From positions 17,779,971-17,843,970 of the forward strand of contig NC_003070.9 of assembly GCF_000001735.4 (NCBI RefSeq): a stretch of DNA of 64,000 bases. The letters are read 5' to 3'. Positions 44,837 to 48,097 of the stretch are shown piece after piece (within the stretch, counting starts at the first letter, position 1; the number at the start of each line of letters is the position of its first letter). The stretch is from Arabidopsis thaliana (Eukaryota > Streptophyta > Magnoliopsida > Brassicales > Brassicaceae). The position numbers and the translations under genes were made by a program. The notes beneath the pieces are model-generated. The model had not been told where the DNA came from, searched no databases, and was given only the letters and a program-made list of their open reading frames with translations.

Positions 44837-45389
44837 TGGCATGTGGGTATTCGGGTCGGGTTTTTCGGATTTAGAAATTTTGGACCTGTATGGTTATATT
44901 AACAATTTTGGGTCGGGTTCGGTTTGGGTTTACTTTGGGTCCGGGTAATTTTGGTATTACCTATAAATAACCAAAACTATCTCGGGTTTGAGTACTACTT
45001 ACCCAAACTTTGTCCAAATATACCCAAACATACATAAAAGTACCCATAAAACCCGAAAAATCCACAATTATAACAAGTTTTTTTTCTTAAGACAATAATA
45101 TAAAACAAGAAGTAAACCTTGTTTTGAACTTGTTCCAGAACTCAAATCATTAAACAAGTCACAGATTCAAGTTATTAGTGCATATATGTCCTCATATGTA
45201 TATATATGTTCGGGTAATAAAAAGTACCCACGAGTATCAGATTCGGTTCGGGTAATACCCGATACCCACAGTTATTTGAAAACAAAACCCGATCGGATAA
45301 TTAGCCGGAACCGAAATAAAACGGATTCAAGTATTTTGGGTCGAGTTCGGTTCGGTTCTTCGAGTTCGGGTATTATGCCCCAGGCCTAA
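44837..45389. mobile_element. Palindromic non-autonomous DNA element with CGGGTAxCCG-rich arms
   Basis: The left part (GGCATGTGGGTATTCGGGTCGGG, then TTTGGGTCGGGTTCGGTTTGGG) and the right part (GGTCGAGTTCGGTTCGGTTC ... GGGTATTATGCCCCAGGCCTAA) are made of GGGTTCGG and its complement CCGAACCC. The right end reads TTAGGCCTGGGGCATAATACCCG on the other strand. AGGCCTGGGCAxxCGGGTA ends are frequent in Brassicaceae MITEs, often assigned to hAT. It has no coding capacity. I could not identify an 8-bp target duplication with confidence. Confidence 0.5.
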
Positions 45390-45615
45390 GAATTACATCG
45401 GGATTCTCACACTCGTCATGCTTACGAGGACGAGCCTTGTTGTAGTTGCAACTTTTTTCCGTTTACTTGGTAGTACACCAATTAATTAGCTTCGTGTTAT
45501 AAATTGTAAACTTTATTTGGGCCGCATGTATCCACATCTTGGCCCATTACTGAATTAGGGTTTCTTTGTTTTCTTCGACCTAACTCCGCCGCTTTTCTCT
45601 TTCTCTTCTTCCTTC

Positions 45616-45627
45616 ATATTTATATAC
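45616..45627 (+). promoter_or_regulatory. TATA box of MIR161
   Basis: ATATTTATATAC lies about 110 bases upstream of the base of the miRNA hairpin, a normal position for a pol II pri-miRNA promoter in plants. Confidence 0.55.
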
Positions 45628-45751
45628 AACCTTCTCTCACTTATCTCTAACTCATCCTTCTCTTCTATGAAAATTCCATTGTTTCTGCCGAAGCTTTGAT
45701 CAGTACTTCTCTTTTGCTTGATCTCGGTTTTTGACCAGTTTATTGCGTCGA

Positions 45752-45772
45752 TCAATGCATTGAAAGTGACTA
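45752..45772 (+). ncRNA. Mature miR161.2
   Basis: 21 nt on the 5' arm, starting with U. It overlaps miR161.1 by 12 nt, so one hairpin gives two registers with different target spectra within PPR genes. Confidence 0.93.
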
Positions 45773-45781
45773 CATCGGGGT
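45761..45781 (+). ncRNA. Mature miR161.1
   Basis: 21 nt on the 5' arm with 5' U, suited to AGO1 loading. Identical to the miR161.1 sequence I know for Arabidopsis. Confidence 0.95.
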
Positions 45782-45889
45782 TCCGATTTTTTTTGTTCTT
45801 CATATGATGAAGCGGAAACAGTAATCAACCCTGGTTTAGTCACTTTCACTGCATTAATCAATGCATTTGTAAAAAGAGGGAAAAGCATT

Positions 45890-46651
45890 GAAATTGTGTA
45901 AGGAGATGGATATGATCCGATTGTTTTTATCTGTTGTTTATCAATTTACTATTATTCACTGATCGATTTGATTTAATTAGATTTCGCATGATGTGTTTTT
46001 GTTTTGTTCAATTGTTATTTTTCAGATGCGAGAAAGTTTTTAAAAGGATAAAGTTCACTTGAAACAAATAACAAAAAGTAAAAAAAAAGACATAACCAAG
46101 AAAAATGATTAGGAGGAGGTTTGTATACAGGTCAACTAGAGTTGATTATATTTGTGTGAAGTAGTCTATGTAGTAATGTTTTAAAGGCATCAGATTTCAC
46201 CTTTTTCTTGAAGTACATATTTGTTCAGTACTAATAGTACTAGAAAAAGTTTGTCACCTGTTTTTGTATAAAAATGTATTTGTTGTACTTTGTTTGAGAT
46301 TGCATCATTTGAATCTATAAAGTGTAATCATGCAGTAGTTCCTTTGATCTCTCGTGTCCAAAGAATGTTATTTTTGTACATTGACGAATGGTTGTGCTAC
46401 ATCACAAGAGAAGAAGAAGACAACATAGTGGTAGACTGGTAGTCATTAACATAAGGAATTTAAAGGCATAACAAAAATAACCTACCAATCTCCATCCAAA
46501 TGCTATGTATCATACGCCGTCTTCTTGTTATGGACCCATATTCATTTTTGAAAGGTTACTGTATTGCACAAACCACAGATGCAGCTTCTTTTATGGTCTC
46601 AATTGCATGCATTAGAGCTACAATATTCAAGTCTTTAAGTACATGACGCTC
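45890..46651. other. Intergenic region downstream of MIR161
   Basis: Probably includes the rest of the pri-miRNA (polyadenylation-type AATAAA sequence is not obvious) and the 3' flank of the F-box relic. No gene is seen. Confidence 0.4.
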
Positions 46652-48097
46652 TCACTCTGATCTCTGATCCATAAACATCAAACTAAATTGAGTAGGCACA
46701 AATTCACCCTTCTTAGGAACATAATGGTAATGTATACCTTTGATTTTAATCTCTCTAATATCATTACTTTGCAGATCACAACAAAGAATGTACAACATAT
46801 CAAACAAATAATCTGGTGTCATTATAACCTTGCCACTTTGAGTTATACCTTTTAACTCCAATCCAATCTAACGTTCTTGACCAAATGCAGCGGACAAGGT
46901 TGCAAAACCAGAGTTTTCGCCAACCACTCCTTTGTCCTGACATCTTCTAGAACCCATAAATTCACTGTACTCTTGTCTTCAAGATCGGTATGGTAAAAAA
47001 CAGTTACTTTTCCGCCATATTCTATAAGACACACCTTCTTGATGGCTCTATGCAGGCTCACATCTTCTTCCCTGTGAGGTACTCGATCATTTTGAATTCT
47101 TCATATCCGATGTCGAAGCTCACAACCATATAATTAGACGAATCAATCCAAGCCAGGTAATGTATAACCCCATTCAATGATAGTCCTTGTCTAAGAGGAA
47201 GGTGAGGATAAAAGTCCACGGGAGGCAAAGTCACCTTTTTCCACGAACCTCCAGGTTTTAGGTCAAAGACCCAATGGTCTGATGATAAAATAAAATATCC
47301 GACGACAACTGAGCAGAGTAACTTTGTACTGTTCGTTAATAGGGTAATGTCCAAAATAGTAACACCACTTCGACCTTTCTGGAGCCGAGGTTTTGGTTTT
47401 TAATTTTATGGTGGGCAAGGTCACAAGTTGTCTGGTGGTAGGGTTATACATTCGCGGTTTTTTCAAAAATGTGTAGCAGATGAAGCCACTAAGTTTTTGT
47501 AAGATCTTGCCTCCCCTATCTCGGATGGTCAACAACAAAGGAGGAAGATGGACTAGTAGCGGATGGAGCTAATGATAGGATTTTAGAGGGACGGTAGTCC
47601 TCGAAATGTGATACACAAATGTAAATTCGTTGAGATGGGACCTTAATGAAACGACTGGTAAAGTATGGACTATGGAGAGCGTATGATAGATGACCAGAGC
47701 TTTGAGACGCACTTGAATCCATTAGGGTTTTAACAGGGAATCTCGTAAGAATCTCTGTCACCACATCCGTTGGAATCTCCAGTAGTGCTTGGCTTCGTCT
47801 TCTTTTCTTCTTTCTCCACTGTTGGATCACTGTTAGACGAAAAGACAAACCCATCTCAATCCCCACCCGAGTTTGAAGACAGAGTCGTTCAGTCTTGGGG
47901 AGAAAGAAATCGCGGTGATCTCTAGGGTTTTGAAGATTGATACGAATTTTGTAATTCCTCTTTAGAAACGGCGCCGGTTTAAGTGATAGTATTTTCATAT
48001 GACTTACGTAACAAAACTCTTCAACATTGTCGTCCAAGAACTCCAAGTTCGTTAATTTCAAATCAAGATCAGAAGACCTCACAATAAAAAAGTTCAT
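46652..48097 (-). pseudogene. F-box (FBA-type interaction domain) pseudogene with multiple frameshifts
   Basis: Reading the minus strand, an F-box (EIPTDVVTEILTRFPVKTLM) is followed by pieces of the typical F-box-associated domain in changing frames: SPYFTSRFIKVPSQRIYICV, then DRGGKILQKLSGFICYTFLK with PRMYNPTTRQLVTLPTIK, then GYFILSSDHWVFDLKPGGSWKKV and SLNGVIHYLAWIDSSNYMVVSFDIGYEEFKMIEY, then IKKVCLIEYGGKVTVFYHTD and LWVLEDVRTKEWLAKTLVLQ, and a final piece, ELKGITQSGKVIMTPDYLFD. Frame changes occur near 47525, 47310, 47060 and 46860, plus a compensated pair near 47690. No intact protein can be produced. Intact relatives are SCF substrate adaptors, a family with many pseudogenes in Arabidopsis. 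Confidence 0.85.

Follow-up and report, generated by a model that had tools for sequence, protein, structure and literature searches.

MIR161 of Arabidopsis thaliana as an inverted duplication of PPR coding sequence with a probable head-to-head join and a one-sided PPR-like tail

The MIR161 locus and its surroundings

The window (the whole 64,000-nt stretch that was analysed, C1:17779971-17843970 of its own assembly) was searched against Rfam with cmscan and contained a single match above the gathering score, MIR161 (RF04079), at 45739-45867 on the + strand, with a score of 129.6 bits against a gathering score of 90 and an E value of 1.1e-30, which assigns it to the family by the covariance model. 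Folding of 45700-45900 gave a stable hairpin of -65.2 kcal/mol (z -6.53, none of 200 shuffles being equally stable), as befits a plant MIRNA gene, with arms at 45744-45782 and 45827-45865 of 39 nt each that are 82% complementary and lie 44 nt apart. The clean stem thus comprises 39 bp and is topped by a weak upper stem. Two overlapping 21-nt registers can be read directly in the sequence, both inside the 5' arm and on the + strand. The loop-proximal register, 45761-45781, which we take to be the one labelled miR161.1, starts 9 nt downstream of the base-proximal miR161.2. The locus is the well-known A. thaliana MIR161, and nothing counts against this identity; the initial annotation, which had called a known MIR161 hairpin with two overlapping registers offset by 9 nt, is borne out by the Rfam match, the fold and the direct reading of the registers. 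The features of the hairpin are as follows.

45739-45867, + strand: MIR161 precursor hairpin (RF04079); cmscan 129.6 bits, fold z -6.53
45744-45782, - strand: 5' arm, PPR-sense on minus (NPDVVTFNALIDA); nhmmer 31.1 bits, E 3.3e-9, for 45811-45744
45752-45772, + strand: miR161.2 register, 21 nt, base-proximal; read in the sequence, letters matching those in an excerpt of PMC5396198
45761-45781, + strand: miR161.1 register, 21 nt, loop-proximal; read in the sequence, letters identical to miR161 in an excerpt of PMC3208272
45827-45865, + strand: 3' arm (miRNA* side), PPR-sense on plus (NPGLVTFTALINA); nhmmer 57.2 bits, E 3.6e-17, for 45801-45967

Upstream, a dispersed repeat at 45201-45398, which recurs at no fewer than 16 further genomic positions with up to 87% identity, ends about 340 bp before the hairpin. 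The region between them was searched for a PPR-derived promoter, and 45400-45743 listed only itself at E 0.01 when compared with the genome in a search that skips simple repeats and common words. Downstream, 52 bp at 46060-46111 match C1:24139449-24139499 (minus strand) with 85% identity; a search with 45868-46700 listed no further relative at E 0.01. Overlapping ORFs at 47058-48097 on the - strand resemble fragments of an F-box-type gene that is either broken or spliced; of these, 47061-47354 matches the F-box associated domain FBA_3 (E 3.2e-9) and 47519-48097 matches no Pfam family at 0.1.

PPR origin of the arms

Both arms were compared with their own genome using blastn and, among the matches listed, matched only the hairpin itself and PPR genes. 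The 3' arm matched C1:23987959-23988034 (78%, E 4.2e-9) and C1:23587522-23587573 (85%, E 2.7e-8), the best 3 candidates having been scored, and the 5' arm matched, on the minus strand, C1:23420362-23420408 (86%, E 3.5e-7; best 2 candidates scored). The ORFs at C1:23987959, C1:23587522 and C1:23420362 are 512, 303 and 629 aa long; the 512- and 629-aa ORFs are called PPR by Pfam and the 303-aa ORF aligns with both. The translations given in the initial annotation exist, ...NPDVVTFNALIDAI... on the minus strand and ...INPGLVTFTALINAFVKRGK... on the plus strand, and the best Pfam matches of these two peptides are PPR models, at E values of 0.0011 and 0.0023, respectively, and below the gathering cut-offs.

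For closer comparison, 18 PPR copies chosen by their similarity to miR161 sites were used for the profile and the tests. The 5' arm is identical to the nearest of the 18 copies at 34/39 positions, with one base unseen among them that is a silent change, and the 3' arm is identical to the nearest copies at 32/39; these core identities are biased because of the way in which the copies were chosen, a bias that is not expected in the flanks. Blastn, alignment and the PPR profile agree that the arms carry PPR coding sequence in the claimed orientations, so that the arms resemble the target family in opposite directions, as in a MIRNA gene that originates by inverted duplication. From the peptides and orientations as read, it follows that the miRNA sits on the arm antisense to PPR mRNA and that the star arm is PPR-sense. 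The proposal that the regulator arose from its target is supported by this similarity and had been published previously.

The closest blastn genes differ between the two arms (best 3 and best 2 candidates scored), as they might if the arms derived from separate PPR genes, or from two repeats, that were brought together, an origin argued for MIR824 and MIR846 in an excerpt of PMC1790633. A search for a derived base common to both arms and absent from all 18 PPR copies found none, and in a tree of 68 columns containing the arms and 15 distinct PPR copies the arms were not sisters, the 3' arm grouping with the copy C1:23987993 (support 52) and the 5' arm elsewhere. Node support in this short alignment was only 51-52, however, and the A. 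thaliana arms, which agree with each other at 32/39 positions as against 36/38 core positions for the arms of the Rfam consensus, seem to have drifted apart. Moreover, where every one of the 18 PPR copies reads GAT or AAT, both consensus arms read GGT, which argues for a common source, although pairing constraint could be an alternative cause both of the agreement between the consensus arms and of their common GGT. We consider two parents rather unlikely and tentatively prefer a single PPR piece copied as an inverted duplication.

Extent of the PPR homology

The arms were aligned with 19 PPR copies, and profiles of 240 nt and 720 nt were built from 18 copies and from 17 (without L044), respectively. 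The truncated copy L041 entered only the 19-copy alignment and not the 18-copy profile; the alignments excluded L037, L042 and L048, which are other PPR genes or a second repeat within such a gene. When the 64-kb window was searched on both strands, the two arms were the only matches above the inclusion threshold. The 240-nt profile matched 45801-45967 on the + strand and 45811-45744 on the - strand (E values as listed above), and the 720-nt profile matched 45802-45966 and 45789-45744 (27.4 bits for the latter) and nothing further out than the shorter one. Resemblance to PPR thus runs in the 3' arm from the loop (45801) as far as roughly 45967, approximately 100 nt below the hairpin base; in the 5' arm it covers 45744 to approximately 45789 and is marginal deeper in the loop. 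The sequence below the base is listed here as a separate feature.

45866-45967, + strand: one-sided PPR-like tail below the hairpin base; masked profile E 0.0014, shuffles

With the mature duplex masked (45752-45781 and 45828-45857), no match in the 64-kb window ranked above 45858-45967 (E 0.0014, against 0.49 for the runner-up). Taken alone, 45868-45970 was reached by 0/1000 dinucleotide shuffles using either profile, most shuffles having no reported score. The first half, 45868-45922, gave no match with the 240-nt profile and was reached by 4/1000 shuffles with the longer one, and the second, 45923-45990, was reached by 1/1000 shuffles with the 240-nt profile and gave no match with the longer one. 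In a pairwise test, the best-gene score and the mean score were reached by 15/400 and 3/400 shuffles for 45868-45970, by 27/400 and 6/400 for 45868-45922 and by 55/400 and 4/400 for 45923-45990, the opposite-strand control giving 387/400 and 395/400. The 3' tail is significant as a whole, and each half is weak alone. On the loop side, the 3' arm is significant (1/400 shuffles on both best and mean), and the 5' arm is marginal, with 63 and 15 of 400 shuffles in one setting, 90 and 12 of 400 in another, and 59 and 12 of 400 for the reverse-complement control run beside it. The 5' flank had no PPR match, either at 45660-45743 (204/400 shuffles reaching the best score, 74/400 the mean) or at 45690-45743 (260/400 and 43/400).

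The initial annotation had held that the match of both arms to PPR genes extends beyond the mature miRNAs. Because of these tests on each side, the claim stands for the 3' arm, by profile and by shuffles, and is mostly wrong for the 5' arm, the loop side of which is marginal and the flank null. The alignment outside the mature miRNAs on which that reading had been staked is present, being found in the 3' arm. Could the similarity outside the mature miRNAs reflect chance or targeting constraint only? The 5' arm, which lacks clear significance alone outside its mature part, and the individually weak halves of the 3' tail would allow it, but the 3' loop side at 1/400 shuffles and the masked 3' flank (E 0.0014, 0/1000 shuffles) make it very hard to credit, as does a published test of similarity with the mature sequences deleted, in which MIR161 was among the loci that passed (PMC1790633, in excerpt). 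Descent from PPR coding sequence is accordingly retained as the source of the extended similarity.

Geometry of the join

Two features of the loop bear on how the copies meet.

45801-45806, both strands: CATATG, probable head-to-head centre of two PPR copies; each strand reads the PPR ATATGA... outward
45801-45826, + strand: PPR codons on the loop side of the 3' copy (ATATGATGAAGCGGA), 5 nt being inserted in comparison with PPR; alignment, profile, shuffles

Outward from CATATG, both strands are roughly colinear with the same PPR codons, the distance from the start of ATATGA to the start of AACCC being 20 nt in PPR, 23 nt in the 5' arm and 25 nt in the 3' arm. CATATG alone is weak evidence and proves nothing, because its six bases are palindromic; support for the centre comes from the palindrome together with one significant side (3', 1/400 shuffles) and one marginal side (5'). 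In the Rfam MIR161 consensus, the 3' loop side fits PPR (4/1000 shuffles on the best score, 6/1000 on the mean), and the 5' loop side reaches marginal significance with the centre (81/1000 and 26/1000) and none without it (209/1000 and 97/1000). CATATG is probably the meeting point of the PPR copies, and the arrangement around it points to an inverted duplication whose copies stand head to head with hardly any spacer or none, in which the 3' copy would be two to three times the length of the 5' copy.

Small RNAs from the stem

The initial annotation had further proposed that siRNA-like products could arise from the whole stem. This does not follow, because the PPR extension lies on the 3' side only and the 5' flank does not exceed shuffled sequence in complementarity to this extension, so that the proposal is unsupported as a hairpin mechanism. 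For a longer, decayed stem, the complementarity of 45700-45743 with 45866-45915 was reached by 455/1000 shuffles in alignment score and 314/1000 in duplex energy, and two other flank settings gave 816 and 831 of 1000 by alignment and 583 and 342 of 1000 by duplex energy, no better than shuffles in any of the three. Beyond the miRNA duplex no long near-perfect duplex was found, the hairpin offering 39 bp at 82% and imperfect, context-dependent tail pairing. In folds of 45700-45900, 45660-45990 and 45600-46000 the 3' tail forms imperfect pairs with sequence on the 5' side, for which reason the tail need not be single-stranded; the partners differ each time, and the 45660-45990 fold extends the stem imperfectly below its base with most of those pairs at a probability of about 0.4. 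We read the tail pairing in these predicted folds as ordinary AU-rich pairing.

Antisense-strand RNAs require an antisense transcript or an RNA-dependent polymerase and are not produced by the fold of one strand. If the MIR161 hairpin is, as we assume, 173 nt long, a density of 40.46 small RNAs per kb would equal 7 sequences. This density is given for antisense small RNAs of MIR161 in Table 2 of PMC2664332, where it is the highest MIRNA value, and an excerpt of PMC1790633 states that MIR161 was dropped at a filter because of bidirectional small RNAs. Both reports, together with the imperfect tail pairing in the longer folds, could be taken to favour a whole stem that acts as an siRNA-producing hairpin. 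We regard this as improbable, given the short clean stem (39 bp at 82% with a weak upper stem), the shuffle-like complementarity between 5' flank and 3' tail, tail partners that change with the stretch folded, and the antisense strand of the RNAs themselves, which one folded strand would not supply. The preferred reading remains a MIRNA hairpin in which the one-sided long homology limits what the fold can dice.

A different source may lie in the 3' arm, which retains a near-target of its own miRNAs (3 mismatches to miR161.1, 2 to miR161.2). With its PPR-sense 3' arm and tail, the MIR161 primary transcript still contains a site that resembles a target of its own miRNAs, and self-cleavage followed by RDR copying is thus one possible origin of the antisense RNAs. 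As a speculation from the sequence, to which we attach little weight, miR161 might cut its own precursor at the 3'-arm site and RDR6 might copy the transcript, which would account for the unusual density of antisense small RNAs described for MIR161. If this were true, MIR161 would act as a regulator and at the same time still belong, residually, to the family it silences.

Targets and proposed mechanism

Genome places within 3 mismatches of each register were scanned, with reversed patterns as the control. miR161.1 gave 15 such places (2 in the hairpin itself, 12 PPR and 1 non-PPR) and miR161.2 gave 27 (2 in the hairpin itself, 21 PPR and 4 non-PPR); the backwards patterns gave 0 and 5, respectively. 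L015, L039, L046, L047 and L050 are non-PPR by translation. The two registers read overlapping sites in the same PPR genes: of the 12 PPR places found with miR161.1, 11 also match miR161.2 with no more than 3 mismatches, and the scans combined yield 22 distinct PPR places. L041 (C1:23386189) is a PPR copy in which the frame breaks about 30-40 codons past the start of the miR161.2 site.

Processing, AGO1 loading, cleavage and phasiRNAs are taken from published work. miR161.1 and miR161.2 are described as products of a unique dual processing of a single precursor, loop-to-base and base-to-loop, both directions occurring in the MIR161 precursor (PMC9023350). Small RNAs do arise from 45752-45781, as the initial annotation required, 9191 reads having been reported for miR161 and the star also having been sequenced (PMC1790633). 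miR161 is enriched in AGO1 (PMC3276544), and miR161-targeted PPR mRNAs yield secondary siRNAs (PMC9994745, PMC1820830), whose role in defence against Phytophthora capsici has been studied by others (PMC11178217, PMC12840914).

Taken together, the locus is almost certainly explained as A. thaliana MIR161, born by inverted duplication of a PPR gene, diced in two directions, loaded into AGO1 and silencing PPR genes. We infer where precisely the copies join, and in what order the events took place, as follows. Part of a P-class (restorer-like) PPR gene would have been copied as an inverted duplication, the copies being joined probably head to head at CATATG with the longer copy on the 3' side. The transcript folds into a hairpin with its 5' arm antisense to the PPR mRNAs, and DCL1 dices the stem in two directions into the overlapping 21-mers miR161.1 and miR161.2. 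Once in AGO1, these 21-mers cleave many PPR-P mRNAs and trigger secondary siRNAs on those.

Relation to known systems

MIR161 is a textbook case in which a target gave rise to its own regulator, and its inverted-duplication origin and dual-direction processing are already known. Earlier work by Allen et al. in 2004 is said to have shown the inverted-duplication origin. A literature search found no description of a palindromic join at MIR161, and the 2004 study may contain one. The small additions made here, a probable CATATG join and a one-sided PPR tail, of which we have seen no earlier description, leave the identity of the locus unchanged and sharpen the geometry of its birth, in which a short copy on the 5' side probably meets a longer one on the 3' side head to head. 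Allen et al. are cited for MIR161 in PMC5775422 and other papers, and Fahlgren et al. (2007; PMC1790633) used MIR161 and MIR163 as controls, both having earlier been shown to resemble genes of their target families. miR161 is listed among three families in common only with other Brassicaceae (PMC9055812), and miR161.2 is reported at a low count in Cleome gynandra (PMC5396198), each according to excerpts of these papers.

MIR161 as published corresponds to this locus in its hairpin, its two overlapping registers and its PPR origin, with no difference in kind. With MIR163 it is one of the two first examples of target-born microRNA genes. MIR163 is likewise a young A. thaliana MIRNA gene whose arms derive from its target family (SAMT genes) by inverted duplication; its duplication took the parental promoter too (PMC1790633, in excerpt), whereas the sequence upstream of MIR161 at 45400-45743 listed only itself at E 0.01. 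MIR161 controls a fast-evolving PPR clade, and the miR173-TAS2 system and miR400 resemble it in acting on PPR transcripts of that same clade (PMC1790633, in excerpt).
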